From Arbacia lixula (Eukaryota; Echinodermata; Echinoidea; Arbacioida; Arbaciidae): 64,000 nt of DNA. A model generated the notes under the pieces. The model worked only from the letters and a program-made list of their open reading frames with translations, was not told where the DNA came from and ran no database searches. The DNA lies in assembly GCA_963669155.1 (NCBI GenBank), contig OZ022578.1, positions 6,885,387 to 6,949,386 on the forward strand, given 5' to 3'. This document shows positions 3,001 through 29,000 of this stretch, one piece after another. The translations under genes were made by a program, and so were the position numbers. The number at the start of each line of letters is the position of its first letter. Positions within the stretch are counted from its first letter, which is position 1.

Positions 3001-6000
3001 TACTTTGTGAAAAATCCCAAGCACAAGAAAAACATATGCTTATCTCAAGAATTTTAAAACATACCGCTACATTAAAAAAAAATATTGAAAAAGAATCATG
3101 AATTACAATCTTGTGTGTTGTGATGAACAGAGAAAAATCGATTCACCTGAGAGCTCTTCCATGGTTTGACAGAGCAATGTTGGTTCGAGCCTGATCCCCC
3201 TGATCCTTCACTACGTTCAGGGCCCTGGCAGAGAAAGTATAATAAAGATAATTGTTATAATTACTTTTAACAATTTTTATTCAATGATAATGGTAATGAA
3301 AATAATAAACAAATTACTATGACAAAAATAATATTATAAACAACAAAGACAAATTTTACACATTTCATTGGTTTTATGCAACACACACATGTACCAAGTT
3401 TGAAGCAAATCTGGTTCACGTTTCTCAAGATATTGCCTGAACAGATTCGGGATGGACGGACGGACGGACAGACAATCCGAAAACATAATGCCTCCGGCCA
3501 CTTCGTGGCGGAGGCATAATTAACAATCAACCAGGGATGCCAAACTTTTCCTTAAAACAAAATTCTACTCTAAATACTACAATATGTGAAAACTGTACTT
3601 TGTGAAAAATCCCAAGCACAAGAAAAACATATGCTTATCTCAAGAATTTTAAAACATACCGCTACATTAAAAAAAAATATTGAAAAAGAATCATGAATTA
3701 CAATCTTGTGTGTTGTGATGAACAGAGAAAAATCGATTCACCTGAGAGCTCTTCCATGGTTTGACAGAGCAATGTTGGTTCGAGCCTGATCCCCCTGATC
3801 CTTCACTACGTTCAGGGCCCTGGCAGAGAAAGTATAATAAAGATAATTGTTATAATTACTTTTAACAATTTTTATTCAATGATAATGGTAATGAAAATAA
3901 TAAACAAATTACTATGACAAAAATAATATTATAAACAACAATGACAAAAATAGTAATTGAATAATCAATAATATTTGAATAAAAATGATAAACTACTAAC
4001 CATAGTAATGAGAACGGCAAAATAACAATAAATTAAATGCTAACTTTAATATTGTTCTTATTCTATAGCCATTATCTTGCTTGTGTCTTTTCATTCTTTC
4101 ATTACTCCATCCACAATCAATGTTGAGGTAGGCAAAAACATCGTCGTGAGTGATTGGTGGTATATTAGGTAACAACCCTTCCATTTTAATATTACGAGGT
4201 TTACGAGGGTCGAAATGACAGATTCTGTGCATTATTGTGTGAATTGAATACGTACCAAACTCTAACCGGAAGTATACGTCCCAGGAGCAATCGATCAGAT
4301 ATTGGTATCGCGAGGTGATATCACTTGATATCGGCTATATGCGAATTCCATGAAGGGTGAAATGAAGCCACACCTCTTTGGTTACTGCAGTTCCGTGGCA
4401 AATGTTGATATCCTAACTGGACTAGGGGTTCACAAAGCCTAAACATCTAACCATGAGCAACGGGTTAAGCAGATGGAGAGACTCACTGTTTGTATGCCTC
4501 CACTGCAGCTCGGTGAAGACCCTGTCTCTCCAGCAGGATGCCATGAAGGGTGTGGGCTTCAGCGCTGGTTTGCACTTGGGCTGGAGAAAGGAGAAGGGCA
4601 GAAGTGAGAAGATGAGAGTAAAAGTAAGAGTAAAACAGGGTCCACAGAGGAGAAAGAGGCTGGAAAGACAGATGGAGGGACAGAGGGAGGGGGAAAGAGA
4701 AAGGGAGGGAGGGAGAGAGGGAGGGAGGGAGGGAGGGAGGGAGGGAGGGAGGGAGGGAGGGAGAGAGGGAGGGAGGGAGGGAGAGAGGGATGCAGGGATG
4801 GAGGGACAGAGGAAGGGACAGAGGGAGGGACAGACTGAGGGGGAAAGAGAGAGGGATGGAGGGAGGGAGAGAGGGAGGGAGAGAGGGATTGAGGGAGAGA
4901 GGGAGGGAGAGAGGGAGGGAGAGAGGGAGGGAGGGAGAGAGGGAGGGAGGAGGGAGGGACAGACGGAGGGACAGATGGAGGGGGAAAGAGAGAGGGATGG
5001 AGGGAGAGGGAGTGGGAGGGAGAGAGGGATTGAGAGGAGGGAGGGAGAGAGGGAGTGATGGAGGGAGAGGGAGAGGGAGAGGGAGAAGGAAGGAATGAGG
5101 GGGAGAGAGGGAGGAGAGGGAGACTAGAGGAATTGATAGAAAAGCTGAGAATGAGGGGTAGATGTGAAGAGGGAGGAGGAGGAGGGAGAGAAAGGATGGC
5201 TTGATCTGATCTCTTCATACCTGCCACTTTGCCGATGGCAGCCTCAGCAGTAGGCACAGCCCCCATCTTAGTGATGTTATAGCGATACAGCTCAGAATCT
5301 TTTTTGAGGTTTGGATCCAGCAGAGCGTCACACACCATGTCAGCATAGCCTAATCCTCCTTCCACCTGTAACAGCAATCACATTTGGTACACACATGAGA
5401 TGCCAACCTTTCCCATTGTGTTTGCCATCGGTGCAAGGAACCCCTCTTCTAGTCAAGAAAGTTCCACAACAGTCAACGTCTGAAACATCTCATATGAACT
5501 CTCCATCTTACAGTGCAGTAGCAAATATAAGACAAATTTCCATGGGAAGGTGGATTATCTGGAAAGTGTCGATGGTGATGCGATCATTTACCCTCACGTA
5601 CTAATATAACCGGAAGTACCCAGGTCACCACTTCACAAGCCCCAATTCCGAAAAGTGTTAGAGTGCCACGCACAGTGATATTTCATAGTTATTTGGGACA
5701 TGAGGAATTGTTGAACGATTGTAAAGCAGCATTTCTTGAGCTAGTTAGTCAAATATCTTACATGTGTAGCCACCCCGGTGGTGTGTCTATACAGGTCAAT
5801 GGCCTCTTCAAATCCTGCTGTCTCCGCAATCAGACTCTGTACACACAACAAAAATAGCGAAAACAAGAAGAAACCTTCATCAAATCTGTGATTATGCCAT
5901 GTCCATCCCTACATGTATTTCAACTAATTGTATTATATTGATGGCACAGGACAAATCCTTGATTTCAATGAAAGTAAATAAAAGAAGACACATTCACAAA

Positions 6001-9000
6001 ATTGTGAGTAAGCCATGTCCATACCTTAATGTCTTACAACTAAATCCACTTGATGCATTAAGATTGTCAACAAGGCCACGAACAAAGCATTATTATCAAC
6101 ATATAATGCCACATCGCTGATGGTGTGCAATGCATTACTGCATGCAATACACACAAGTTGAATGCCAGTACTAGTAACTCTGGAATCCCTGACAGACCTG
6201 TGCATCTAGCCTGCTAAAGATAGCAGGGGGTGTTTAACCAAGCCGTTCGTAAGTTACGAACGACTTTACGAATGACTGGTGATCCCTTCTTGTGCTAAAT
6301 GTTCATTTGTTCATTGAGAATCTGATTTAGCACAAGAAGGGATCACCAGTCGTTCGTAAAGTCGTTCGTAACTTACGAACAGCTTGGTGAAACACCCCAC
6401 AGGATGGATTTAAATTCATGCTTGCTCTGTGCTGCGAGAAAAAACACAAATTACTGGCTTTAAACTAAAGTATTGCTTTCAATATCATCTGCACCATCCT
6501 ACATTAACAGGGTTGCATTTGATATAATATGAATAATCCAGGATCCATTGTCATCACGCGCCCAGCTCAAAGGACACACACAACACAACATAAAACAATC
6601 ACAAAATGTCAGGAAAAGAACCAGAATGACTGCGGAAAGAGATGGAGGAGAGGTAAGAAGGGAGGTACTCTACCTGACCAATCCAGCACTGGACATAGCT
6701 TGGTTCCAGGGACTGAGCCACTGAGAAGGCCTTGTTGGCTAGCTGTAGGTTCCCCTGCGAGAAGTACAGCGTCCCTAGGTTTGTCCAGGCCACCACGTTC
6801 TGAGGACGAGGAACAAGCAAAAAATACATGCAGTGCTTGGCCACTTTCTCACAGGAGCAGTTTGGCCACCTGCAGTTGCATCCAATAGATTTCTTCCAGT
6901 ACAGTCAAAAACAGTGCTGAGTATCAAGTAAAGAATAATTTAATATATAACACAGATAACAGAACCAGTCTCTACATGTAATGTGCTTTTGTTAGAAGTA
7001 ACAGCAAAAGATGTAGCTAAGGCAAAAGGGAAAGAGGGAAATAGGAAATAAGAGAGAGACAATAGAGGCACTATTAAAAAAGCATGTTGAAACAGCAACA
7101 CAATCCACGCAAATGAGATGAAACTACCACTGACTTATTCACAGTTTGAGCAAGCGAGTTTCTAACTCTGACTTAGAATAGTCAAGTGTTTAACATCATT
7201 ATAGATACCTCGGGAAGCTATTGCAAAGTTCAAGTATAGCATATCAGTTCTTGACATAATGAAGGATTATTACATTATCATACTAATGTCTATGTACAGT
7301 TCTGTCAATGTCACAGAGACAGAAGGTCAGCATAGAGCAAAAGAGAGAAACAGACACACATAGAAAGATGAATGATGAATTGTAAGAACATACCTTAGCT
7401 TCCAACTGGATGGACTTGATGAAGGCATGCTGAGCGAGGCCTGGATCAGCTATAGCTGTAGAAAATAGAAACAAAATCATTCATGTACAGTGAGTGATCT
7501 GCAGTCCTTGCGTATTTCTGCTCAATGCGCATTAGCGAAGGATGGATGCGCGATGTGTGTTGTGTATTTATGCATCAGTATAAACAACAGCAATTTTTTT
7601 TCAGAAGAAAACTTGGCAAAAATTGGACATATTTGATAATTTATTGTCATTCAAAATATCCCTGTTTTGCAACTTGGGTTCATACTTCCATGATTTTCCT
7701 GTCGATCGCAGAAAAGGAGGAACTTGCAGGGTAAGGAGAGTACACGTATAAGCTGAGTTACATGGTACACTATGTACAGTACAGACGAAATAATACTCGG
7801 TGCTTGGATCTATAATTTCTCATCCATTTCTCATGTTGTTTGCTGAGCAACTCTTTTCAGAGAGAATTCAAGAACATTCTTGTGTCTTGATCCTGAGAAT
7901 CTGCCTGTCATTCATGTAATATTGTGTTATCTATATTTTATTGTAAACATGTGCAATTGGCTACTGAGTATGAGGCTTTTGGGGCTGTAGTTAAATTGAA
8001 TTAAATACAATTTATCTGACACAGAATGAATGATTGTGTAGATAGTTTGTAGAAGAGCAGTGAAAAAGTTCACATGGGCATAGGACAATTTATCCCTAAT
8101 GCAAAAAATGACCACCCGCAGACAACTTATTAGTGCTTATGAAAAAAAAAAAATGATGGTTTAATGCACGTGATATAAGGCTAAAAAAAGAGAAGCCCCT
8201 ACAATCGTTTTTCCCTGGGAGAGAGTCAGGGTTGAAGGCGAGTTTATTCCATCATACCTGGTGAAGCAGCTACCACACCCAGGGCTGTCCAATGCACATG
8301 ATTCATCTTGTCTAGGGCGATAGCCTTCTTCAGGAACTAGAATTCAAATGACAGGTAATCATAAAGAACACTTTGTGAACTAGACTTTTACAAAAGGACC
8401 ATTTTGATACTAAAATGTCTTCTAATCACTTAAGTTTTACAAGAATTATAAACACAATTGTGTGCTTGAGTATGAAAACAATTTCTCATTCTTCCATCCA
8501 TTCAATGTTGTTCAAAGGTGCGCAGAGAGGAACTATGAGAGTTATTTTAAATTTCCTATCATACAAATTGATATTGCACAGGCAAATTAATATAACTCGT
8601 GCAAATGAAGTGGCAAAAGGAGGAAACACTAGATTCCCTAACCTTCTCTGAGAAGTTATTTTCTTCTCCCTTGACACCACACCCCACCTCCCCGCCCCCC
8701 CCCCCACACACACACACACACACTCCTATTTCTTTTTCTTTCTGTCACTATAGGTTAGCAAGTCCCTCCTTTGGTCCATCTGTCTCTCTGGATCTGTTTT
8801 TGTATGTTCATCTCTCTCTGCCTATCTCTCAATCTCTGTCTTATGCTCATTGCTTTACAAACAATTCTCCCTATCGCATATACTCTCCGAATCTGAACGC
8901 GTGTGGCGCTCTGATCTTTTTACCTTTAATACTTGGGAGATGAACGTTCGGTTCACGAATATTCTATAGCCATCGTCTTGCTTGTGTCTTTTCATTCTTT

Positions 9001-10926
9001 CATTAGTCCATCCACAATTAATGGTGAGGTAGGCAAAAACATCGCCGTGAGTGATTGGTGGTATTTTTTTCAAGTCCTTCGTCCATGTAACAACCATTCC
9101 ATTTTAATATTAAGAGGTTTACGAGGGTCGAAATTACAGATTCTCTGCGTTATTGCGTGAACAAAATGTGAACAAATTTGGTTGAAAAGCTGATAGTGCC
9201 GCTATAATACTGCCCTACTCTGACAAAAGGAAGCAACTAACAAATGAGACTTTTCTTGTAAATCAGCAAAATGTGTCTGTCACTTGCATTGGTAGCAGTG
9301 CAACACCACACCATATTACATTGAATATCTCGCAGCGAGATGAATATTTCTTGTCCAGATTTTGCCTGTATGTAGGGAATGCTGGGTACAATCTAAGAGT
9401 ACCAATAACCCAGATTTGAGTGATTTGTCACTTGATTCCTTTTGTCAGAGTAGGGCAGAATAGTGCCGTACTGCTATATTTTATAGTGATTTGCGATGTC
9501 AGGAATTCACAAGACAATGCACCCACCTGCAGGGCCTTCGCTGCAGTCTTGCCATCTTGGCTCCATTGGTACTGGCGGTAGTAGTTGATACCAAGATCAT
9601 GCCACAGGGAGGAACAGTCCTTCCGTCTCTGAACGGCCCTGCTGTAACATCTGTTCACAGATAATATGATCAGTTTTCAAAAGAAACCCTATTCTAGACC
9701 ATTCCGAATCATCTCTTTTGTGACCATTCAGTAGCTTGCATGAGCATCGTTGTAGAACATCCCAACTATAACATCTCTTCAAATAAACCATGATAAGAGT
9801 TTTTGAAAGACCACTCTTTTAAGACCATTCTGTATCTTGGACTTTTAGCATTGGTGTAGAACACCCATGCTATAACTTCTCTTCACATCAAACACGATTA
9901 AAGTTTTCAAGAGACCACTCTTTTAAGACTATTCAGTAGCTTGGGTGATCACCATCGTAGAACAGATACACATCCAAACATTTTCAGCACAGACCAAATG
10001 AAACAACTCCCTAAAATGTTATATGAAGAAAACTCTAAAGAACTCTACAGTGTATATTTCTATGAGAAGCTATCACCTCACATTTTCATTGGTAAAGTTT
10101 TTACTTAATAGATGAACATAACTGCATCTTTTTGTGATTACTTTAATCATTGTCAAATATATTTTTCTCCCAAATACATGGATATTTTAAATGGTATGAT
10201 TTGTACATTTGGTGACTTGTGCACCACCTCCCCTCCAATTGTTTGTCGTGGCAAAAAAAAAAATAATTATAGTAATAATGTGTTTTTTAAGTTCTTTCCT
10301 AGTAAGAAGCACCAGTACTAAAGTATGAAGTACTACCCAAAGCGCTTGATTATTACGCTGGCTTTTATAGCTAAGCAGCCAAGTATAAAGCGCTTGAAGC
10401 TAGTTGATCTAATTAGATCAGGAATACTATATTCCTGCCAGGTACCCATTTACTACACCTGGATTGAGAGGGACAAACATGAGTAAAACACCTTGTCAAA
10501 GGGTGTATGCACCAGGATGGGCTCGAACCCAGGATCTCCATGCAAGAGTCAAGAGCTCTCACCACTACACCACAGTGCCCTCACACAATCTCCCCCAGCC
10601 TTCTTACCTGCCTCCAAGCGTCAAGAGTTCACCCTTTCCGAGGGTCTGCTGCGAGTCCTTGTCACCAGACAGCAGAGCTCCTGCCACTGAGATCCTGGGA
10701 GTGGAACATGGGTGACCAGAATATCAATGGGTGAGCGGAATATCCCAACCCATCAAAAAACAAACACAAGGTCACCATAACAATGCCAACAATTTGACTG
10801 CTTGAGCGTACCCTCAATATCTTACTCCGCCTCGTTTGCTGACTTTCATGTGGAATGTATATGTTTGTGCCTGTGTGTGTGCATGTATGCGTATGTGTGT
10901 GTGCATGTGTGTGTGCGCCTGCTTGT

Positions 10927-11002
<76 letters not shown>

Positions 11003-11304
11003 ATGTGTGTGAGTGCATGTGTGTGTGTGTGTGTGCACCTGTGTGTATGCACCTTTGATGTGAATGGGGCTCTTCCAAAAGAAGGAACCATAAAGGTTTG
11101 GTTCCCCTCGTGCCACCGTGCGCTTGGAGAAGGGTGCATGCATCCCTAACAGCTTACAGACACACACACAGACATAAACAGACATACAGACATACACACA
11201 GACAGACACACACAGACACACACAGACAGACACAGACGCACAGCTCACCTGATGATGTCATCATGAGGGGCCAGTAGAGTGCAGGCATCCCCGAGCAACT
11301 TCTA

Positions 11305-11349
<45 letters not shown>

Positions 11350-11572
11350 ACAGACAGACACAGACGCACAACTCACCCGATGATGTCATCATAGAAGGGC
11401 CAGTAGGGTGCAGGCATTACCTAGCAGCTTCTAGACACACACACACACACACACAGACATACACAAATACACTCAGACATACACACATACACTCAGACAG
11501 ACGCATAGCTCACCTGATGATGTCATCATGGAGAGGGGCCAGTAGGGTGCAGGCATCCCCTAGCAGCTTCTA

Positions 11573-11612
<40 letters not shown>

Positions 11613-11745
11613 TACACACATACACTCAGACAGACACAGACGCACAGCTCACCTGATGATGTCATCGTGGAGAGGGGCCAGTAGGGTGCAGGCATCCCCA
11701 AGCAGCTTCCACACACCACACAGGTCAGGCCGCAAGATGGCCGCC
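1..11745 (-). CDS. SKIC3 (TTC37): SKIC3 exons 21-34 (superhelical core, partial)
   Basis: Exons in order: 11745-11653, 10694-10608, 9650-9527, 8336-8258, 7455-7394, 6799-6674, 5836-5762, 5365-5221, 4580-4487, 3819-3742 and its duplicate 3224-3147, 2602-2475, 1749-1626, 131-1 (runs off the window). For exon 22 the acceptor was placed at 10694, not at the nearer AG at 10686, because only that choice joins phase 2 to phase 2 and gives RISVAGALLSGDK. For the last exon the acceptor at 131 was chosen over 124, since 124 would create a stop. These exons hold the best-conserved part of the protein: WHDLGINYYRQ, WTALGVVAA, AQHAFIKSIQLEA, NVVAWTNLGTLYFSQGN and SLEPSYVQCWIGQ. Confidence 0.94.
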
Positions 11746-13229
11746 CTGAAACATGAATAGGCACATGAAATCAAACGATGTGTGCAAGTGAGAGGATGAA
11801 CAGTGAACAATAATAGTGAGCACAATGACCAGCATCTTTAATGCTCCATCTAATGTTGTGGGACATTTCAGTACAGATAGTGAAGTGTTCTTTTCCAATT
11901 CCTCGTTTACCCTTAAATAAATAGAGAACAAGAAAACAGGTACATATACAAATGGAAAGAGGGACTAATGAAGACATTGAGAGATGAATGAAGAGGATAA
12001 AAAGAAAATGTGAATATTCTACTTTTAAAGATTGTATTACAAATACATGTAAGAGACCAGAATCTGCAATGACCAGAATAGTACATCACACCGGTTACTG
12101 GTTTCACTGCGTTTTGTACTAAAAAGCGCTTGGGGGGAGGGGGTGGTGTCACAAAGATGAGCATAAGTTACGCACGACTTTACGCATGACTGGTGACCTG
12201 TTCATGTGCTAAATGAGATACCCCCATTTGTATTATTAAGGGAGTGACTTTCCTACCATCCTTACCAAATTTGACACATTATAATCTTTGTACTGAGACG
12301 CTTCTTAAAGACAAGAATTTCAATCTACAAAGATCAGATTTCAATTTAAGCTGATGGGAATCAAACTGAATGAGAGTCTGATTTGGCACACAAAAACAGG
12401 TCACCAGTCGTGCATAAAGTCCTGCTTAACTTATGCACATCTTAGGCGTGTTTATCAACTCTTTTTTGGGTAGAATTAAGGTTTCCAACGTGTTTAAATT
12501 TTTTCAAACGCGTTTAAACGAGTTGATAAACGCAAAGGTGTTTTGATTAGGGGGTTTAAAAAGCTGTTTTGAAACATGCAAATTTGTACGATCCTAAACG
12601 CGTTTAAAAAAGCGAGATAAACGCAAAGCTGTTTTGAAACACTTTTAAACCATGTGTTTTCGGTGACAAGGCCGGTTTTTTGTCTTGGGCGATCGAGTTG
12701 ATAAACGCACCGTTTTTTAAACGCGTTCGTAAAGGCCTTTGGAGTTGATAAACGCACCATTTTTTTAAACGCGTTTGGAAACGTGTGAGGAAACGCGTTC
12801 GTGAAGGCCTTTGGAAACGCGTGTAAATTTCTGAAAAGTTGATAAACACGGCCTATGACTTGTGGCAGAACTACTGCGTCCACACACCTGGCAAGGACTG
12901 TGATAACAAGCTGGATGTAGGAGACAGCTCTGGCTTGGTAGAACTCGTGCAAGGCTGCTTTGGCCATCAAGATGTAGGTCTCTCCTTGGCCTGGGCATAC
13001 AGATAGCAAAGCGATATGACACCTCATGTATCAAGTCAAGGGCCCTGTTTCATAAATCTTACCATTAATGCTAACTACCATGGTAACATCGCTTGACAGC
13101 CAATAAAATTCAAAGTTTCCATAGAAATTGCCATTGTTAGCAAAGTTACCATCACTGGTAAGTTTAATGCAACAACAGGCCAAGACGAACATTTGTGGAA
13201 TGAATGAACTTCCATTAGGGTAGTCTTTG

Positions 13230-13263
<34 letters not shown>

Positions 13264-13267
13264 TCTA

Positions 13268-13320
<53 letters not shown>

Positions 13321-14056
13321 GAGACCAATGAAAAATAAGGAAAGTAAATGATCAATAAATTAAATAAACACATAGATATGAATGTTACATTTTCAATACA
13401 TATGAATATGCATGGGACTATCTATCCCCCTCTTCGTTCGAAGTGGTAATTATCTCCTTCTATTTCATCTTCTCTGGCTCTTTCCCTGTGTTTCTCTCTC
13501 TTCTTCTTTTTTTCTTTTTCTTCTTCTTTCCCTTTTCTATCTTCTTTCCTTCTCCACATAAGCCTTTGCTTCTTCTCTATTACTTTCTTCTTTTCTCATT
13601 ATTTTCTTTCTCTATATTCTTCTTTTTCATTTCTTCTTCTTCTCCCTTCTTCTACTAGTAGGTGTGCACTCACCAGTCAAAGCTGGAACATAGTTTGGTG
13701 ACCTGCTCAGGATGTCTTGGTAGATAGCCACAGCTTCAGGGTATAACCCAAGGGTCTGTTTGATGTAACCAATCCTGCATCAAGACAAATTACATCAGTA
13801 AAGTAGGTGTCAAAGAAAACTCTTGACACTTTTGAAAAAATGATTGAAAATAAGCTTCAACTCAAATGGAGCTGACATTGACAAATCAGTAAGTCAAGGG
13901 TGATCAATTTTTTGACAATCAAGTTTCGTGACATTTCATCCATGATTATTATTGTAATAATCGTCAGAATATTAAATGAGATATCCATTTTTTGACAAAT
14001 TTGGACCTCAAAATTTGTGTATGAACATTCTGTGATGCTTTCTCCAGTGGCAGCCA

Positions 14057-14091
<35 letters not shown>

Positions 14092-17000
14092 AGGATATAT
14101 ATATATATATAATATATCAGTCAAGTTATGTATAGAAGCACACGCCTGCAGCTCTTGTCTCACACAATCAAAAGCAACAACTGACTGAGTGGAAAGTACA
14201 TGAAAGAGATGGGATCAAGTGAATATGGCTGGCTTACTTGAAAAGAGAGTATGTCGCATTTGGATCCATCTATGATGACGAGTACATGGAGACAGAGACA
14301 AAGAAAGAACGAGAGCATTAACTGCATCTATCCTTCAGACAATACATTCACCTCAATGGACTACTAATATATACAAATAAAATAAATCATATTCCCGCAA
14401 AAATCATCCATTTGACCAACAGTTATCTCTCATTCTCTTAACAATTCTCAATCTGTGCTTCATTGGTTGCTAATCACATTTTCCCTAGACTTTCAAATGG
14501 TGAACAAATCAGAAAATCTTTGGATTACATCTATTTTACTGTAACAAGTCATAAAAGTGACCAGGTCATAAATGAAATACTCCGATAGATTAATGTATAT
14601 TGTTGGATCAATGCTGTAAAGGTAGCAATTTGCAATAACATTCAAAGCATATCTTTCACGAATGTCACCACAAAGTCACAGAACAAATTGTATAGATACA
14701 AATGAAACTGTTATAAATAAGGATTTCCTTCACCACTATCCTACATTGATTAATGTTTCTTGTTAGTAACAATACATATATGATTTGAAGATTTAAGGGA
14801 AAGTCCACCCTGAAGTCACGTTGGTTTTAATACAAATCTAAAACATGTAAAAAACAGATTAGTGAAAGTTTGATGATTTTTATCTCTCCTTTTTTCTCCA
14901 TAAATTCTGTTTTTTAATGAAGGAATAAATCTTTTTTCACAGAGGTACAGTATGTGTGTAAAACCATGTGTCTAATGATAAATGCATAGGTCAAATGGTT
15001 TATAACCTTTTGAGAAAATTTAAATGTTAAAAAAATTGTACATAACATATGAAAGAGCGTTTGACAAAAATCAAAACTTTGAAAACTTATTACTTTCTTA
15101 TCCATTGAGGGATATTCATCAAAATCTTCACTCATGCATTTCTTTCATGTTTCTGCTTTTATCAAAATCAACTGCATTTCAGGGTGGACTTTCCCTGCAA
15201 TTACTATAAAGATCAATTTATGATGTTTCTCACCTCAATGACCCGACTGAACGCTCTCAGGGCAGCGTTATAGCTCCCTCTGCTCAAGTAAGCCTCGGCT
15301 AAACACTCCTGGCAATGCCTACACAGGGACAAGATGGATTAATCTCCAGCTAAACACTCCTGGCAATGCCTACACATGGACAAGATGGATTAATCTCCAG
15401 CTAAACACTCCTGGCAATGCCTACACAGGGACAAGATGGATTAATCTCAGCTAAACACTCCTGGCAATGCCTACACAGGGACAAGATAGATTAATCTCAG
15501 CTAAACACTCCTGGCAATGCCTACACAGGTGCAAGATGGATTAATCTCCAGCTAAACACTCCTGGCAATGCCTACACATGGACAAGATGGATTAATCTAC
15601 AGCTAAACACTCCTGGCAATGCCTACACAGGGACAAGATGGATTAATCTACAGCTAAACACTCCTTGCAATGCCTACACAGGGACAAGATGAATTAATCT
15701 ACAGCTAAACACTCCTGGCAATGCCTACACAGGGACAAGATGGATTAATCTACAGCTAAACACTCCTTGCAATGCCTACACAGGTACAAGATGCATTAAT
15801 CTACAGCTAAACACTCCTGGCAATGCCTACACAGGGACAAGATGGATTAATCTACAGCTAAACACTCCTTGCAATGCCTACACAGGGACAAGATGAATTA
15901 ATCTACAGCTAAACACTCCTGGCAATGCCTACACAGGGACAAGATGAATTAATCTACAGCTAAACACTCCTGGCAATGCCTACACAGGTACAAGATGCAT
16001 TAATCTACAGCTAAACACTCCTGGCAATGCCTACACAGGGACAAGATGGATTAATCTACAGCTTAACACTCCTTGCAATGCCTACACAGGGACAAGATGT
16101 ATTAATCTACAGCTAAACACTCCTGGCAATGCCTACACAGGGACAAGATGGATTAATCTACAGCTAAACACTCCTGGCAATGCATACACAGGGACAAGAT
16201 GAATTAATCTACAGCTAAACACTCCTGGCAATGCCTACACAGGGACAAGATGTATTAATCTACAGCTAAACACTCCTGGCAATGCCTACACAGGGACAAG
16301 ATGTATTAATCTACAGCTAAACACTCCTGGCAATGCCTACACATGGACAAGATGGATTAATCTACATCTAAACACTCCTGGCAATGCCTACACAGGGACA
16401 AGATGGATTAATCTACAGCTAAACACTCCTGGCAATGCATACACAGGGACAAGATGAATTAATCTACAGCTAAACACTCCTGGCAATGCCTACACAGGGA
16501 CAAGATGAATTAATCTACAGCTAAACACTCCTGGCAATGCCTACACAGGGACAAGATGCATTAATCTCAGCTAAACACTCCTGGCAATGCCTACACAGGG
16601 ACAAGATGGATTAATCTACAGCTAAACACTCCTGGCAATGCCTACACAGGTACAAGATGAATTAATCTACAGCTAAACACTCCTGGCAATGCCTACACAG
16701 GGACAAGATGGATTAATCTACAGCTAAACACTCCTGGCAATGCCTACACAGGTACAAGATGGATTAATCTAGAGCTAAACACTCCTGGCAGTGCCTACAC
16801 AGGGACAAGATGGATTAATCTACAGCTAAACACTCCTGGCAATGCCTACACAGGGACAAGATGGATTAATCTACAGCTAAACACTCCTGGCAATGCATAC
16901 ACAGGGACAAGATGAATTAATCTACAGCTAAACACTCCTGGCAATGCCTACACAGGGACAAGATGAATTAATCTACAGCTAAACACTCCTGGCAATGCCT

Positions 17001-20000
17001 ACACAGGGACAAGATAGATTAATCTACAGCTAAACACTCCTGGCAATGCCTACACAGGGACAAGATAGATTAATCTACAGCTAAACACTCCTGGCAATGC
17101 CTACACAGGGACAAGATGTATTAATCTACAGCTAAACACTCCTGGCAATGCCTACACATGGACAAGATGTATTAATCTACAGCTAAACACTCCTCGCAAT
17201 GCCTACACAGGGACAAGATGGATTAATCTACAGCTAAACACTCCTGGCAATGCCTACACAGGTACAAGATGAATTAATCTACAGCTAAACACTCCTGGCA
17301 ATGCCTACACAGGGACAAGATGGATTAATCTCCAGCTAAACACTCCTGGCAATGCCTACACAGGGACAAGATAGATTAATCTACAGCTAAACACTCCTGG
17401 CAATGCATACACAGGGACAAGATGGATTAATCTACAGCTAAACACTCCTGGCAATGCCTACACAGGGACAAGATAGATTAATCTACAGCTAAACACTCCT
17501 GGCAGTGCCTACACAGGTACAAGATGCATTAATCTCAGCTAAACACTCCTGGCAATGCCTACACAGGGACAAGATGGATTAATCTACAGCTAAACACTCC
17601 TGGCAATGCCTACACAGGTACAAGATGAATTAATCTACAGCTAAACACTCCTGGCAATGCCTACACAGGTACAAGATGAATTAATCTACAGCTAAACACT
17701 CCTGGCAGTGCCTACACAGGTACAAGATGCATTAATCTACAGCTAAACACTCCTGGCAATGCCTACACAGGTACAAGATGAATTAATCTACAGCTAAACA
17801 CTCCTGGCAGTGCCTACACAGGTACAAGATGCATTAATCTACAGCTAAACACTCCTGGCAATGCCTACACAGGTACAAGATGAATTAATCTACAGCTAAA
17901 CACTCCTGGCAATGCCTACACAGGAACAAGATGGATTAATCTACAGCTAAACACTCCTGGCAATGCCTACACAGGTACAAGATGAATTAATCTACAGCTA
18001 AACACTCCTGGCAATGCCTACACAGGGACAAGATGAATTAATCTACAGCTAAACACTCCTGGCAATGCCTACACAGGTACAGGATGGATTAATCTACAGC
18101 TAAACACTCCTGGCAATGCCTACACAGGGACAAGATAGATTAATCTACAGCTAAACACTCCTGACAATGCCTACACAGGTACAAGATAGATTAATCTACA
18201 GCTAAACACTCCTGGCAATGCCTACACAGGGACAAGATGAATTAATCTACAGCTAAACACTCCTGGCAATGCCTACACAGGGACAAGATAGATTAATCTA
18301 CAGCTAAACACTCCTGGCAATGCCTACACAGGTACAGGATGGATTAATCTACAGCTAAACACTCCTGGCAATGCCTACACAGGGACAAGATAGATTAATC
18401 TACAGCTAAACACTCCTGACAATGCCTACACAGGTACAAGATAGATTAATCTACAGCTAAACACTCCTGGCAATGCCTACACATGGACAAGATGAATTAA
18501 TCTACAGCTAAACACTCCTGACAATGCCTACACAGGGACAAGATGGATTAATCTACAGCTAAACACTCCTGGCAATGCCTACACAGGGACAAGATGAATT
18601 AATCCTTTGAGCCTCAGACCAACAGCTGCTCTACAGGACTTGTGTGTATCAACCCATTTACTACGGAAAATGGGTAGTCCCAGTTCCCAAGTTTCCTACT
18701 CAGAAACGGGAACCAGGTATACGCCATTTCCAGAAACGTACCAGCCTCAGCTTGTTTAAACTCTGCTTTAAGTACTTTTTGATTATATTTGAAAGTTGTT
18801 GATATGTGCAATCAGTAGTTCATATAGTTAAACAGTTCAATATTATATTTGTGGAACTTCTTTGGAGAAAAGCTGTTCAACAGGGATTTTACTAAACAAT
18901 GTACATCTATCTGTAAAGGAAGTTTTTGTACCACAGTACCTGTCGCATGCACTAGCAGCATGCTTTTAGCAACGTTGCAAAACATCTATTGGACACAGTT
19001 GCAGTGCTCGCAAGCAAACAGTTACAATCAATATTCACCCTTTATTCTTCAATAGTGTGCACACACACACACACACGGTTAACAGGTACATTGGCTGGGT
19101 AGTCCAAATAATTTGTTTCCGGCTGTGAGCACTTGTTTCAAATTTTGTAATATATGGGTCAATTGTGCAAAATTGCATCAATGGCACTTAGAACAGGTAG
19201 CACATATATAATGTATCAAAATATTAAGATAGAAACATGAAAGTAACAAGGTTTCATGCTTCAATTTTCATGACAGATGGGGTTTTTTTTAATGACTTTG
19301 AACTGTTTCAGGTGGATAATAATCAAGATTCTCCAACCCTCCAAACAAAGGCAATAGAGCTTGGTTTCACTTTCTGTCATGAGTTTGACTTCATTTTTTA
19401 CAGATGATGAAAGAGTAGACAGTAATTGCACTCTAAACAGAAAAGATGTCACAATGAGGAAAGCACATGCATGTACCAGTCCAAGAACATGGCACCAGCA
19501 ACTTGCGATTTTATATCATATTGATACGATATTCTCCAATGCCTCTCTCACATATTGGAGCTTGTGGATGAATCAGATTATCAGTGGTGGCTCATTGCTA
19601 CCATAAAGCCCTGTTGCATAAAACATAAACCATTAATGGTGACTCTGTCATTGATGGTAACTACCATGGTTATACTGCTTCACCGCCAATCAAATTCAAG
19701 GTTTCCATATTCAGGGTTGCATAGAAGTTACCTAACTATGTCATCTATGGTGACTATGGCTCAACAGCCACTCAAATTAAGGTTTCCATAGAAGTTACCA
19801 TTAATGGTAAGTTTTATGCAATGGGGCCCAGAACAGAAATTCTAATCACTTACTTGTCATCAGGATCCGCCCTGAGCACTGCTTGAAAGCTGGCAGAAAA
19901 AAAAATTAATATTGATATCATATACATTATATTCCACATACTAAGAATGTTGCTATATGATTGGTCAAGAGTTGATCACGTGATGAAGCATATTTTTCCC

Positions 20001-23000
20001 CATCTGATCACCTGAGAAGAAAAGTTTGTTACACTCTAGGTTATAGTACTTTTTGGTTCCGCTGATCTCTCTACTCCTAACACGCATGATCAATATTTTG
20101 AGTATGTGCGAAATAAAAGTGTGTTACACTCGGACTATCAAATGTAGCTTGGCGCACACAAATTAATTACAAATTTGTGGTTATAGCGCGCTGCGCGGGG
20201 TGTGGGTACGTATGTACACGTACATACACATACATACATACATGTACACATAGCCTATATACAGTTCGTGTTTACCCACAGTCGCGTTTCAATCAAAATG
20301 TCCCATTAATCACCACAACAGCAACATGATTCAGGTAAGTGAACTTCATCCTGTATTATACTGTAATTCGTAGCCCTTCCCCCCTCCGATAACCAGAACA
20401 TGGTCTAACGTTAGATTTGGGTTAGATTCTCAGTAGCCACACTGACCAGATCATGTAATTTCCTGCGGCTTGGGCAAATCAACAGAAATTCAAGTTGCAC
20501 CTCGGCCGCAACACCGTGAAAGTTCCCGTAGGGCGCTCAAACTCAAAAACGCAGCTGGAAAGAAATGTATCGCGTATTGCAACAAATTTCGTCACCAGGT
20601 AGAGAGCATGCACAGTAGTGCCAAGGAAGAAACCAAAAAGTAATATCATGTAGCCACACCGACATGCTTCTGTACATTAAATTGTCGTTTTTTTGTATAG
20701 ACAGTTGGTTTCAGATGTGGAATATCATTAACTACCCATTAACTACACCTTGGGTGAGCGGGACAAACATGAGCAAAACCCCTTATCAAAGGGTGTACGT
20801 ACTGGGCTGGGCTTGAACTTGGGATCTCTTTCACTGTCATTAACATCATCATCATGCCCACAGCCGCCACCATCACCACTATCACTATCACAATCCTCCC
20901 CCCAACCCCCAGCCCTCCCTGTAACCTCCCCACTCTATTACCTCTCCACTGCCTCTGTTGCCTTCCCCACCCCCAGCCCTCCCTGTAACCTCCCCACTCT
21001 ATTACCTCTCCACTGCCTCTGTTGCCTTCCCCACCCCCAGCCCTCCCTGTAACCTCCCCACTCTATTACCTCTCCACTGCCTCTGTTGCCTTCCCCACCC
21101 CCAGCCCTCCTTGTAACCTCCCCACTCTATTACCTCTCTACTGCCTCTGTTGCATTCCCCACCCCCAGCCCTCCCAGTAACCTCCCCACTCTATTACCTC
21201 TCCACTGCCTCTGTTGCCTTCCCCACCCCCAGCCCTCCCTGTAACCTCCCCACTCTATTACCACTCAATGCCTCTGTTGCCTTCCCCACCCCCAGCCCTC
21301 CTTGTAACCTCCCCACTCTATTACCTCTCTACTGCCTCTGTTGCCTTCCCCACCCCCAGCCCTCCCTGTAACCTCCCCACTCTATTACCTCTCTACTGCC
21401 TCTGTTGCCTTCCCCACCCCCAGCCCTCCCTGTAACCTCCCCACTCTATTACCTCTCCACTGCCTCTGTTGCCTTCCCCACCCCCAGCCCTCCCAGTAAC
21501 CTCCCCACTCTATTACCTCTTCACTGCCTCTGTTGCCTTCCCCACCCCCAGCCCTCCCTGTAACCTCCCCACTCTATTACCTCTCCACTGCCTCTGTTGC
21601 CTTCCCCGCCCCCAGCCTTCCCTGTAACCTCCCCACTCGATTACCTCTCCACTGCCTCTGTTGCATTCCCGACCCTCAGCTGGACCAGCCCCAGTCTAAG
21701 CCACGCCCACTTGGCCCCGCCCGCTGCCGCCTGAGTGGTCACAGCCATGTACACTGAGATGGCTTCCTCCTGCAGGTTTAGATTATGTTGAGTGAGAAAA
21801 GGCTTAAGGTTCTTTCAAATAACATTTCCTTGGATAGTTTTAATGATGAAAATACACCCACACAGAGTGATGGTCTTCATTTGTCCTAAAAATATCCTTT
21901 TTCAGGACAAGAATTTATTAAGGTACATCTTAATGATCGTTATCAAACTACTCAAATTGGCAACATAGCTACATGCATTTATTTCAGACTGCAAAATAAA
22001 ATCTAGTCTCTATCTTCATATTCCAATTAAATTTTTCTGGTATGTTGGCACCCAAAGCTGATACTATTGGTAGTTTAAAAGCTATTTCAAATCATTTCAA
22101 ACTTGATGTATTCATGAAGTGCCTTTATAGAATACAGTGTAAATAAATCATTAAAACATATCCATATGTACGAATATAAATAAGCATACATTGCGCTGCT
22201 TGAACACAGAAGTACAAAGCAGCCATCTTAAAGCTTGCAATATAGTTAAAAGAAGTCAACTTTTGCTCCCTAAAACATATCAGAGTAAGAAATCATAATT
22301 CAGAAGCAAACATTTTTAAAATAAAAGAAGAAGAAAGTTGATAATTGCTCTTATCTTTATTTCAAATCATACTCAATACGACAACATGAGCACTGGTGGC
22401 TGCTCTTTGAATATATTTGAGTATATTTCATGTCCAGATATTTTCGCTAATTGAGACATCCCCGATCATTTCACAAGCACTTCATTCTGCGCTCCAGATC
22501 CAACATACAGGCATACAATATTATACCATACAAATATACATATATATATATATGAATTAAGGTATCTAGCTAGAAATTATTGCAGTGGTTAAAAGTTACT
22601 GCACATATAAGCCACCCGTTTGTAGCACATTGTTGCTCACAAAGAGGGAGTGTATGCAGGAAGGAACAACCAATAAACAATCTGCAAAGCTTTCCTGTCT
22701 TTTAATTCTCACAGCGTGAGAATCACACAATTTAAATCAATCAAAGCACTGCAAAATATACCACATTTACAGTCGTAATTAGTGACTGACATCAAGTAGA
22801 GCAGAATGAACAGACAGATTAGAATATCTTGCTCTACAGTATTCTACCTTCTCATCCAGCAGGTCGCAGGCATCGCCCAGCGCTAGTGCAGCGCCCTCAC
22901 TGGTAGGATTCAGGTCGTACGCCTTCCTGTAACACCGCTTTGCTTTACTGGACAAGAGGTAAAGATAGAGATGGATAATGACAGCATCTCTGAAGGTTTT

Positions 23001-26000
23001 ACACACTTCCAACTGTTCAAGGCTATTTTAGGAAAATATTGCAGTGCATGTGAAAATTGTTCTTAAAAAACAAGAGTTGATTGATAACAATTACAAAAAA
23101 ACATGCTTTACATCTGTGTGTTTAATATCCATGACTCAGGGTGGTATGTTGCCTTTTTCTTCTTCTTCTCTTCAATAACTAAGGAAATACAACAACAGAC
23201 AATGAGTTTGATTAGATTTACATTTTAGTCATTCCTATAATAACATACCCAGTAAACAGACATGCAAGGAGGAAAGAAGGGATATGCAATATAAATTGTG
23301 AAGTAGTCCCATCGAAGGGGGCTTTAAAATGTGTAAATGGAGCCATTTTTAGGGGAAAATTTTTAAAAAAAGAGAAAAGTCAGAAGAGATCAAATAGCAA
23401 AGAAGGGAATATGCAATACCTGGTTTTTCAATTATAGTAACTTACCAACCATCAATGGTAAGTACCATGGCAACAGCCAATGAGCTCTCATCATTGCACC
23501 TGTTGCTATGGTAATTACCATTGATGGTAAGTTACAATAATTGAAAACCTATATGCAATGTGGCCCAGTAGTTTTGAAGTCTAAGAGAGGGAGGCTAGAA
23601 GTGGGAAATAGACAAATTCTTTGAGAAAACAGAATGGTCAGAAGAGGTCAAAGAGCAAAGAGAGGATATGTGATTCTAGTAACGAAACACAACTCTGATA
23701 CTCACACTGTGTCTTTGCCCACTTGCATGTAATGGTGACCAAGATACAGAAACGTCTCAGAGTAATTTTGATCTAGCTTGGCCGACTAGAAATATGTAAA
23801 GAGACATAAATGTAACAATCAATGATGCTCCGTCTTCAGAAAGGCAGGTTTCATTTTATTCTTTTAAGCGTAACAGCAGAGGGCTCTTTCTTAATAAAAT
23901 GGTAAAAAAAACCTACTTATTTTCTTTACTCTAAATAGCATATTCTAATATAAACAAGTATCACATTAAAAAATTCAGACTGCGCACAATGTGGTTGAAG
24001 GTAAAAGTAATATTTGACTTCTTCTGCATCGGCCAAACAAAACACTGCTCCATGACATTATTTTTACCTTGTATTCGTCATCCTTCTTGCTTGGATACTG
24101 TAAATGTCTTTCCCTTTTTAATCTTCTTCCCTCTGTTTATCTCTGTTGAAGTAAACCTTGTATTTATCTTTCAATGTTAATTTGATGCCAGTCTTATTTA
24201 TATATGCCTCAATGCACCGTCACTTTTTATATTGTAGAATGGTTTGTAATTTAGCTTTAGAGCCGCAATGACTGTTTCAATAAAGACACCATTATTAGAT
24301 ATATATCACTGGTTCAAACATGGCATTTAATAAAGAGGTACGTTTGAGATTCTACCTTGAGGAAGGAAGACAGGCATTTTGCTTTATCCTTTACAGCCTG
24401 GCCCCCCATGGCCCAGAAGACTCTGCCCAGCCAGTAGTGATAGAGGGCAGCCTCCTCCATGGCAAGAGCTGCTTGTAATCTACAGGATTCAAACAACATT
24501 ATTTATATTCCAGTAAACCCCACAAAAAAAACTCAGGTGTGAGTGGTCATGTACCTTTAATTGCTTCACTATGGTACATAAATGTGTGATCTTTATAATG
24601 ATGTATCGTTTGTAATGCTTACGCAATCTTGAAATGCACAGACATTCAAAAACGAAATGTTGCAAAATCATGTGTTATCCATTTGTTTTGCACATGAAAT
24701 GAGTGTGAATGATATTGATGCGGCACTGTGTGAATATTTATTGTTACGTTGACACTATTCAAAACACATTTCATCTTCATAAAAAATGGAACCTTCATTG
24801 CTATAACCAATGCACTTTGCAACATTTCATTTGTGACTTTGCCCCATATTTGTGAATACAGCACAGTCCATGATTGTATAATCGTAACGAATGGCACACC
24901 TATGTAAAGAGAAATAATCAAGCTTTCTAAGGATACCATAGTGACGAATGATGATAAAGCAAGATATATTACCCCTCAACTTGAGTTGCAGAACATTTTT
25001 TATGAGTTTATTTATTCATAATGTTTTACCCAAGATGCCCATTCAAAAAGAATCCGTCTCCCATGAGCCCCTTGGAATAAATCTTCAAACAGAAATTTAT
25101 AATATCATTCAAAATAACAAAAATGTCACAACATCAGAAACACTACAGCAAAGCTTCAGGCTTGATACATACAAGACTTAAATGTGTGTTCAAATGAGAA
25201 GGTAATTTCACACTTGGTTACTAATACATTATATCCAAAGTGTTACACACTGTGTCGAGTACTGCATGACACAAGAACTGTTGGTAATATGCAAAAAATA
25301 CACATACAAACAATAAAATAAGACAAAAAGTCTAAAAAGTCTAAAAAGTCTAAAAACCTTGATTAATAAGAGCTTATAATGTCTGCCTTACTTCTCCTGT
25401 GCTTCTGTTAGCTTGCCCTGGTGGAACATCAGCCAACCAGCTAGTGCTGTCATCTGGCTCGACTCCCTGCATTCGGCGGGAATCTCCTCAAAACTCTGAT
25501 AATCAAAGTTAGAAAAAGCTATTTTTAATCACAATAAATGAAAAAGGGCAATTTTGGGCAACTTTTCACAAAGTTCACTGACCTTTAACCTCAATCAGAC
25601 TTGCCCCCTATTTTACACACTTCATTGGTTTCATGCAATACACACATGTGCCAAGTTTTAAGCAAATCTGTTTAACGGCTCTGAAGATATTGCCTAAACA
25701 GATTCGGGACTGACAGATGGACTTACGGTGTACGGATGGACGGACAACACAAAAACATAATGCCTCCGGCCACTTCGTGGAGATTCATTTAAAATGCAAA
25801 CAAAAGGCATTTCTGGACATTTCTTTATGTTTTTCTGTATGTCTGTATGTTTTTCTTCAATGTCACAAAGTCTCAGACAGGTTATCTGTAGTATACAGGG
25901 TTCAGGTAATCTCGAGCCTCCAAGAATCAAGTTCGGAACAAAAAAGATCAGGTACTTCCAAAATACATACAAGGCATTATTAACACAAACTGCTTTTAAG

Positions 26001-29000
26001 TTGGTTGACATGCTGCAATCATTAAAAATCTTTCTCCATCAGATCAAAAAATAAATCTATGCCGTTTCATAACTGCATGTATGTTTAAGATGGCAATCAA
26101 TAAATCTCATTGTTCTGTCATCTTCCTTAGTTCATTAATTTTACTACTGAAAACTTTTGTTCCGAGGGGAAAAAACGTGATACTAAGGCGTCCTCTTTTG
26201 TTTGACTACAAACCTGTTGGGCACTGGAGATGTCGCCTGCTAATAGATGCGCCCTAGTAAGCAGCTCACACATCACAGGCCGGTCAGTTGTATCCAGGAG
26301 CAGCTGATAAAGAGAAAAGTGAAACCTGCTTTAGCAATCACCTGTACAGAAAGACCGCATTTTGTGTTTCATATAAAAACTAATTCTGATTGAAACTTGG
26401 TGTCAAGTTACACACTCACTCACTCACTAACTTGATCAGCACTTGCCGATCAATCACTATTCTTCGCCACACCTCCCGATCTGTCATCAGGGTCGCAAGC
26501 TCCTGAGTGTTGGTAGCACCGGTGCCTGTATGTAAAGACCACCTTCTGATATAGACCACAACTCTTGTCTTCCTTAAAGATAGCCCATCCCTTTTACAAG
26601 CTTCTGCAAACTTCATGAAAGTTTGCACAGATTTAGCACATATCTTTGGGATACCAACTGTGAAATTTTAAGGTCAGAGGTACTATAACTCCCATAGAAT
26701 AAATGAAAATCTAACTATTTTTCACTGAGATTTGACTATTTTCGTGGTACAAAAAAAGAAAGCAAGATCAATTATCTAGATTATTATCTAGGGAAAGATT
26801 ATATAGCCACTCTCTCTCAAATGATGACAAAGTCAGGGAACTTTCAGAATTAGCTCTGCAAAAGGGACGGGTTACCTTTAGTATTTACGGGGCGTTTAAA
26901 TACACAGTGTAGGTTTCACTGTAGCTGGATAAGAGGACCTGATTGTACACCAACACATATCTTTGACTTTGTGGTCTTGAGTAGGTTTCTACATTGCCAC
27001 CTTCCATAAGCATTCAAACGATGTAGAAATAGTTATGTACACAATATGTGCAGCATCTCCACTCACTGGGTATGCTGAAATTCATATCCTGAAAGCTGTT
27101 ATGTTCACAAGGGTTTTATTTTCGTGAATTTTTGGAGTCGCTGGAAGGTCGTGAGTGTAACAACACACAGAAATATCGCCACTTAATCTTTAATCTTGTA
27201 CATGGAAAACATGCATGGAGAAGAGTTACTGTTGTGCATATCAAGTTTATGCAGCAATTACCGTATCAGCTGTGACTCACGAAAACAACAACACGTGCGA
27301 ACATCTGTGACTGTGCCATTCGCAAAAATATCTGTACACAAAAAAAATTGGCTTATACGGTACACGTTTGACAAGTATTTATGTTGACTTTACTCCGTGG
27401 GTAGTATAGTATCCCTGCGCCCGTGCCCAATTCCTGTGTTGGGATCAAGCTCACCTGCTGGAAAAGTTCCACAGCTCTGAGCCCATACTCCATGAGGCCA
27501 GACTCCAGCCAAGCCCTGCCTTGCAGGCTAAGGAAGGCTTCTCTCAGCTTCATGTCTGCCTGCAGGGCCGGGTGGCTGTAAGTCTTCAGAAGACTCAGGC
27601 CTGCAGACAGGAAGAAATAATCAACAGTAAGAATAATTATAATATAACGTATAGAAGTATAATGATATTAACAATTACAATAATGATAATAATTATAATG
27701 ATAATAACAATCATAATAATAATACAAGTTACAATGTTAATGACAAATATAATTTTAACAAATATTATAATAACAACAATAATAATACAATTCATAATTA
27801 TGATAACAAACATAATAACAATGATAATAACAACAACATTGATAATAATAATGATAATAGAAAAGCCATCAGGGGAAGCTTTAAATGAACTATAAAGGAT
27901 TGATAGCAAATAATATGGCATAGCTCAAATGCTGACAATTTGCTGTTTTCATAATAATTTCACTTGTTGTAGAGTTACAGCAGAGGCAAAGATTTGCAAA
28001 ATCCAACATGTTTCTAGTTAAGGACCTGGGGCCATATTCATGAAACTTTACTAGGCCTAGTTAGTTACTTAAGTGCATTCATCTACATGCATTTTAGTAA
28101 CTAACGAGGCTAGTAAGGTTTCATGAATATGGCCCCTGGGGCCGTATTCCATAAACATCTAAGAATTTTTGCTCAAGTCTAAGCAATTTGTCTTAGCCTT
28201 TTTCTTGTCTAAGAAATTCGTCCTAACGGTATTCCATAAACTTAAGCAATATTTCTTAGGTCAGACGATTTGGCTAAGCCAAAATCTTAAAATTCTTTGA
28301 CGTCATGAGAAAATTGGTGACATCACGCAACTTTCATCATACTTGTACTCCCACGAACAGCTCCCCGCGGTGAAAAGTCAATGCATTTTACGTGTTAAAG
28401 CAAAAATCGCACCAGCATTGAGTGTACCGTTAAAGCAATGCGTACCTTGTCTGTGGGCTCAATAGGATAGTTCCGATTTGCCATGGGGCAATGTCATCAT
28501 AGATGAGATCAGTGATGTTAAACATACCGTGCCGACATTTCACCAGTACGAACGCCAGTTGCGAAACAGAGAAATTTGGGACAAAATTTTGCAATTGTCA
28601 AATATGTGTATGATGGGTGGGCCATTCTCGCCGCACTAACGATTTGAGACGAAAACGAATACGTATTTCGATATACTCTTTCACTAAATCACACATACTT
28701 TCATGCTTTATATTTTCAAAATCATATTACAGAGACATTTTGAGTAAACACTTACGAATAATTGTATTTTCAGTGCAAAACTGTGAGCCTGTCAATATTT
28801 GTCGACGATAAAGTTGTGGCCCTTAAACGCCGCACCGTTTACGTGCATTGTCAATGGGCTTTTCTTGATCGATTATGTGTTCGATTTCATGGTGACTTGG
28901 TGATTTGAATAAAAAAGAAAAAAAAAAGAAATTTGTAGTTTGCTTGCTCATGTGATTTACGTATGAAGTAGACTATTGATAGAAGAATTCTATTTTCTTT

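Follow-up and report, generated by a model that had tools for sequence, protein, structure and literature searches.

We describe here three minisatellites, A1, A2 and A3, that lie in a single gene, SKIC3, of the sea urchin Arbacia lixula, and each of which carries repeated copies of one of the splice junctions of that gene. They were found in a 64,000-nucleotide stretch of contig OZ022578.1, hereafter the window (Table 1). To build the gene model, candidate exons were taken from open frames and bounded by GT/AG and by phase, and the whole model was then checked: its 34 exon copies are phase-consistent, have GT at 33/33 donors and AG at 33/33 acceptors, and translate, with the doubled exon used once, into 1,156 amino acids with 0 stops. 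At the protein level the model matches human SKIC3, the 1,121 amino acids from exon E2 onward being collinear with residues 36-1154 of a solved SKIC3 chain (E=3.3e-214). Exons account for 3,547 of 37,588 bp (doubled exon counted twice), so the first-pass annotation of this stretch was right that more than 90 percent of the roughly 37 kb is intron; the 66-68 junctions are spaced at about one per 550 bp.

Tandem Repeats Finder (TRF), unit decomposition and the gene model confirm that the units of the three arrays are unrelated, that all three arrays lie in SKIC3 and that each holds one model junction. In the A1 unit some 61-70 nt from the 3' end of E20 are followed by the donor and an intronic (GT)n tract; in the full copies the donor reads CAG/GTGAGC (the slash marks the splice site), with one CGG/GTGAGT, and the first copy is the real E20 donor. 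A fifth copy, at about 11128-11188, is truncated, stops in the exon part and has no donor. Read in coding orientation, the A2 unit is made of a branch-point-like ATTAAT, a pyrimidine tract and TGTAG/GCATTGCCAGGAGTGTTTAGC, and its last copy is the real acceptor with the first 21 nt of E16. In A3 the 3' end of E14 is followed by the donor GAG/GTAAT and by G-rich intron, the first copy being the real E14 donor. What had been claimed of these arrays, that each copies a splice junction, therefore stands (donor of E20, acceptor of E16 and donor of E14, respectively), but not that they begin exactly at it: the units straddle the junction and reach 70 (A1), 21 (A2) and 36 nt (A3) into the exon. The copies are not uniform. 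Among the 65 copies of A2 there are 31 distinct unit types, with no clear gradient in distance to the exon-linked copy; those of A1 differ by substitutions and indels, 2/3 intronic exon pieces having 2- or 3-base deletions; and the exon-linked copy of A3 carries private differences. When the A1 unit was used as a genome query, the strongest three of the 99 matches listed were its own copies, and the rest among those listed matched its AC-rich parts only (query about 1-49 or 99-180).

Table 1. Window coordinates of SKIC3, of the exons whose junctions are copied and of the three arrays.
Feature	Position	Strand	Basis and remarks
SKIC3 (TTC37) gene	1..37588	(-)	33 distinct coding exons within the window, one of them doubled; continues past window base 1
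Exon E20, donor inside A1	11653..11745	(-)	Phase-consistent model; last exon base 11653
Exon E16, acceptor (15318) inside A2	15234..15318	(-)	Phase-consistent model
Exon E14, donor (21645) inside A3	21645..21769	(-)	Phase-consistent model
Array A1	11178..11722	(-)	TRF and decomposition; 4 full copies, about 129-145 bp, plus stub
Array A2	15298..18604	(-)	TRF and decomposition; 65 copies of 51 bp, 4 of these 50 bp
Array A3	20901..21680	(-)	TRF and decomposition; 12 copies of 64 bp, one of these 63 bp

Other repeats accompany the arrays in the same gene. A 595-bp tandem duplication (window 2757-3948), with copies 99.8% identical, doubles a whole 78-nt exon (26 codons, phase-neutral), and the frame stays open with both copies; it could be a recent event or merged haplotypes. 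At 4702-5122 an (AGGG)n/(CCCT)n tract occupies most of one intron, ~100 bp from the donor at 5221. Two copies of a dispersed repeat (82% alike), at 10443-10538 and 20733-20828, lie ~600 bp from A1 and ~70 bp from A3, respectively.

Junction copying is not confined to SKIC3. In the host genome (607 Mb, 590 contigs) the AAA_6 profile gave 81 matches in ~18 places (hand count), and we took parts of two dynein heavy-chain genes, A (40 kb, on another contig) and B (30 kb), with an approximate exon list drawn partly from matches between the open reading frames of both dyneins and partly by eye from open frames. Dynein A has 13 arrays, eight with a unit of at least 30 bp. One of these, given by TRF as 182 x 1.9, actually comprises 4 copies, with unit lengths of 91/91/92 bp, that all contain TGCAG/ACCGTGTGCC; on the acceptor side it covers some 20-24 nt of a conserved exon that belongs to the AAA1 region. 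This independent case rules out a phenomenon specific to SKIC3. In dynein B no array with a unit of at least 25 bp was found. Arrays with a unit of at least 20 bp number 11 in 37.6 kb in SKIC3, 13 in 40 kb in dynein A and 20 in 200 kb in other stretches of the genome (20 stretches of 10 kb, 16 elsewhere and 4 beside the window, used for density only, their exons being unannotated). An intron of dynein A (piece about 23.7-25.0 kb) and the start of dynein B (1-704) share a dispersed repeat with open frames that are about 90% alike over much of its length; in dynein A a 161-bp tandem array adjoins this repeat. A myosin place, C15:19562915-19567669, where a 1,629-amino-acid open frame is listed at several myosin matches, was considered as a possible stop-free array and discarded: in the 2.4 kb read there TRF gave no array with a unit of at least 20 bp, and all three plus-strand frames have many stops.

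The edges of the units bear on how the arrays were born. At the A1 edges the exon's own GTGTGGTGTGTGG resembles the facing intronic (GT)n tract; an imperfect repeat, ~13-16 bp long and reading CCC[G/C]ACCC[T/C]CAGC on the plus strand, flanks the A3 unit; and at the break of the dynein A array CTGA is common to exon and intron. Slippage or microhomology-mediated duplication yields such likenesses, and either may have been the source of these edges.

Structures of this kind have been reported in amphioxus under the name of 'mirages': minisatellite-like tandem duplications of the intron-exon boundary, affecting both 5' and 3' boundaries, whose mechanism is described there as unclear. Their units, similar in size to those described here, measure 150-160 bp in the globins and 10-72 bp in Adh3 (Canestro et al. 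2002, via a citing paper), and AG/GT is kept in many, not all, copies. Mirages are further characterised by unstable lengths, also in somatic cells, by array edges that escape homogenisation and by regular splicing that goes on undisturbed. As in the mirages, the units of A1, A2, A3 and the dynein A array hold exon and intron on both sides of the junction, in tandem, and the splice signal is kept in many but not all copies (81/85). A1-A3 are mirages in the structural sense, and no new mechanism is demanded by them. Unlike the amphioxus cases, three of them lie in one gene, with up to 65 copies, and a further one lies in a dynein gene; the open, phase-consistent model would allow regular splicing to go on as usual.

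We think it probable that A1-A3 are minisatellites of the mirage type, produced by random tandem duplication, mostly at microhomology, and tolerated since the exon-attached copy still splices. A short tandem duplication would arise anywhere in the sequence, in most cases where two short stretches resemble each other. If its unit happened to lie across the border of an exon and an intron, the copy attached to the exon would retain a working splice site and the further copies would land in the intron, and because of this the change would be nearly neutral. Slippage or unequal exchange would then let the array grow and homogenise, its exonic edge staying pinned.

How often should such a random process strike junctions? 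In our chance model a unit-sized seed is placed randomly in SKIC3, not wholly within an exon. The share of placements that meet a junction rises from 4.9% for a 27-bp unit to 21.9% for one of 148 bp, and is 9-21% for units of 51-136 bp. When SKIC3 and dynein A are pooled, 4/14 minisatellites span a junction, with 2.63/2.14/1.62 expected and P 0.26/0.15/0.061 if at least 1/10/20 bp are required on each side (triplets below follow these three rules). Dynein A alone, with 1/8 and 1.8/1.4/1.1 expected, agrees with chance, and under none of the three rules does the pool reach significance. The first-pass annotation had argued that random birth in a gene made mostly of intron should rarely strike junctions three times. 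That was overstated, because a random unit already meets a junction in 9-21% of cases and the pooled counts are not significant (P 0.06-0.26); the unit-sized seed, not the intron fraction, is the fitting model, although an excess is possible. Chance, one of the three options that the annotation had offered, is the reading that we favour on the pooled counts. In these counts the 6 arrays of SKIC3 omit the 595-bp duplication, whose unit does span a junction, the simple-sequence-like arrays (units of 34 at 10862, 20 at 13491, 34 at 13569, 34 at 14061 and 36 at 27661) and other TRF rows with short or low-complexity units; five arrays with 20-25 bp units are omitted from dynein A, and dynein B contributes 0. 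Adding the 595-bp, 36 and 34 (13569) arrays gives 4/9 for SKIC3 (P 0.017-0.039) and 5/17 for the pool (P 0.11-0.22).

Several observations nevertheless weigh against a purely random origin. By the strictest rule the pooled count comes near significance (0.061). SKIC3 by itself has 3 junction-spanning arrays among 6 minisatellites, with 0.86/0.69/0.52 expected (P 0.038/0.020/0.0075, post hoc), and these three are also its most amplified arrays. Other cuts of the same gene, which are post hoc and partly conditioned on the hits, give 4/7 with the 595-bp duplication (P 0.024, 0.012, 0.004), 3/4 for the four longest non-simple arrays (P 0.012, 0.007, 0.002) and, for A1-A3 alone all hitting, P 0.002, 0.0009, 0.0002. 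Inspection of the A2 edges revealed no shared word or microhomology, its copies being joined by a short TACA/TCCA-like filler; and within A2 the mean number of deviating copies is 0.67 for a column derived from the exon but 2.67 for one derived from the intron. Finally, in a genome-wide search for three consensus motifs in a row, with the backward pattern as control, acceptor arrays (three TTTYCAGR) gave 327 matches vs 53 (ratio 6.2), above the ratio of 2.7 for the motif itself, which occurs 96 vs 35 times in 336 kb. Both array totals are raw matches; the 100 listed of the 327 collapse to 26 places (hand count), several with 20-35 bp base units.

Some of these points would fit an alternative in which transcription or splicing directs newborn duplications preferentially to junctions, so that junction arrays outnumber the random expectation; R-loops where the non-template strand is G-rich, donor flanks rich in GT, or pausing might be responsible. 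The SKIC3 count (3/6, P 0.008-0.04) and the raw acceptor-motif excess speak for it, as do the G-rich coding strand of A3, the GT tract of A1 and a 4.24-kb tandem duplication in a neighbouring gene, described below, that begins at an acceptor. However, A2 is neither G-rich nor GT-rich, the pooled count (4/14, P 0.06-0.26) makes no call for such a bias, and donor arrays show no excess, since they gave 26 matches vs 34 in the control (6 vs 21 for units of 21-51 bp; 20 vs 13 for units of 52-82 bp, the 20 being one dispersed family with 12 matches in 5 places plus three other places) and the donor motif itself occurs 7 vs 6 times in 336 kb. We consider this explanation unlikely; of the transcription- or splicing-linked mechanism that the first-pass annotation had put forward, the counts of arrays and donors require nothing, and the raw acceptor excess still speaks in its favour. 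The acceptor-motif result does lean toward a 3' splice-site bias, perhaps a modest one, and both acceptor arrays found hold the acceptor with ~20-24 nt of exon. That tandem-duplication seeds strike 3' splice sites above chance in this genome is nonetheless a doubtful proposition in our judgement; if true, the birth step would be connected with the 3' splice site itself or with the sequence found there. A 68-bp tandem array at C6:15112217-15112905, every listed unit of which carries a consensus donor (ACAGGTGAGT), is a candidate further junction array.

A different alternative is that the many splice sites are maintained by selection, either because they provide redundancy or because they regulate productive splicing, with unproductive sites leading to decay. 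It can point to the 81/85 copies of the four arrays, exon-attached copies included, that retain the splice dinucleotide (GT in 4/4 full copies of A1, AG in 61/65 of A2, GT in 12/12 of A3 and the acceptor in 4/4 of dynein A), as well as to the quieter exon-derived columns of A2. But the 4 broken dinucleotides, all in A2, compare with a neutral expectation of ~5.4 over 85 copies, obtained from the per-array deviation rates (3.69 + 0.58 + 0.59 + 0.54): A2 has 94 deviations in 51 columns x 64 intronic copies, and the deviations per site are 0.024 in A3, 0.074 in A1 and 0.068 in the dynein A array. In A2, 39/50 neighbouring column pairs deviate no more than the AG pair, and the share of variable columns is similar in the exon-derived (5/21) and intron-derived (9/30) parts. 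Splice dinucleotides are thus lost at about the rate of other positions, a near-neutral decay with no firm sign of constraint, and the deletions of 2 or 3 bases in 2/3 intronic exon pieces of A1 point the same way. On a home-made matrix from the other junctions of SKIC3 (31 donors scoring 4.3 to 12.1; 32 acceptors, 2.3 to 16.9), A1 donors score 9.35-10.75, A2 acceptors 4.1-8.0 in 59/65 (the real E16 acceptor, 6.3) and A3 copies 5.8 in 10/11; the real E14 donor is lower, at 4.38, which could be taken in favour of selection. Because the array copies score like SKIC3's own sites, the exon-proximal site would have to be preferred beyond its own sequence, or messages would be wasted. In model translation, read-through beyond the E14 or E20 donor leads immediately to a stop, and TAA enters the message if the acceptor chosen lies one or two units upstream of E16; a third such extension, shifted by one base owing to a 50-bp unit, ran into stops as well. 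These stops would suit a regulator, and they argue against useful redundancy; the earlier suggestion of selection for splice-site redundancy finds no support, and we hold selection of either kind to be very improbable. The exon-proximal site is presumably the one used, in which case the change would be nearly neutral.

Two further explanations concern the origin of the copies themselves. Reverse transcription of spliced or lariat intermediates, also proposed earlier, is contradicted by the structure of the arrays: every complete copy keeps exon and intron contiguous in genomic order and exon-exon joins were not seen in the copies. We found no point in its support and reject it with near certainty. 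An assembly artefact, with wrong copy numbers or even spurious arrays, has in its favour that long arrays are hard to assemble and that the 595-bp duplication could be a merged haplotype; the 31 unit types of A2 and the substitutions and indels of A1 argue against it, and we judge it most unlikely. Random tandem duplication with tolerance of the surplus copies remains the reading that we prefer.

Minisatellites have been linked with splicing in other systems, and the comparison shows both similarities and differences: (i) the human IFI6 gene (6-16, G1P3) has a minisatellite with multiple splice donors (Turri et al. 1995, cited in PMC2572611, PMC2915984 and PMC4526556), and the use of two of its downstream units as donors has been reported (PMC4526556). 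As in IFI6, the tandem units at the exon's donor in A1 and A3 carry donor sites; unlike there, the alternative SKIC3 sites tested lead to a predicted stop. (ii) In Drosophila novel introns (PMC2891723) and in a potato case, tandem duplication duplicates splice signals, the potato one crossing a junction. In those systems new introns come from one duplication, whereas in SKIC3 an existing intron gained many copies; no intron gain is needed by the SKIC3 model, in which each array sits within one intron. (iii) The C. elegans minisatellite CeRep25B is a repeat with intronic motifs, over-represented near alternative splicing regions (PMC4039745); it too links a minisatellite with splicing but, unlike A1-A3, its abstract describes no copy of a junction. 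In the open-licence literature, not searched by host name, no report of junction-copying minisatellites was found for this host.

Elsewhere in the window, a plus-strand gene at 55845-64000 has an EGF exon and weakly FN3-like exons. The left boundary of its 4.24-kb tandem duplication (55845, 60084) lies within the acceptor, TTCCAG, of an exon with weak likeness to FN3 (Pfam E 0.064, which misses the cut-off); the upstream introns are unrelated, the exon and beyond are 92% alike, and from 58613 on the copies are 97% alike. Between 39500 and 42800 lies a near-perfect inverted repeat, with 1,482-bp arms 99.87% identical, which contains a minus-strand open frame of 432 amino acids that, by its YIDD motif, resembles a reverse transcriptase.

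Junction-copying minisatellites, published for amphioxus, thus recur in the genome of this sea urchin, three times in SKIC3 and once in a dynein gene, and line up as many as 65 consecutive copies of an acceptor. Such arrays are natural tests, at loci ready to hand, of how the spliceosome chooses among near-identical sites, and they supply material from which intron gain and cryptic splicing can arise.

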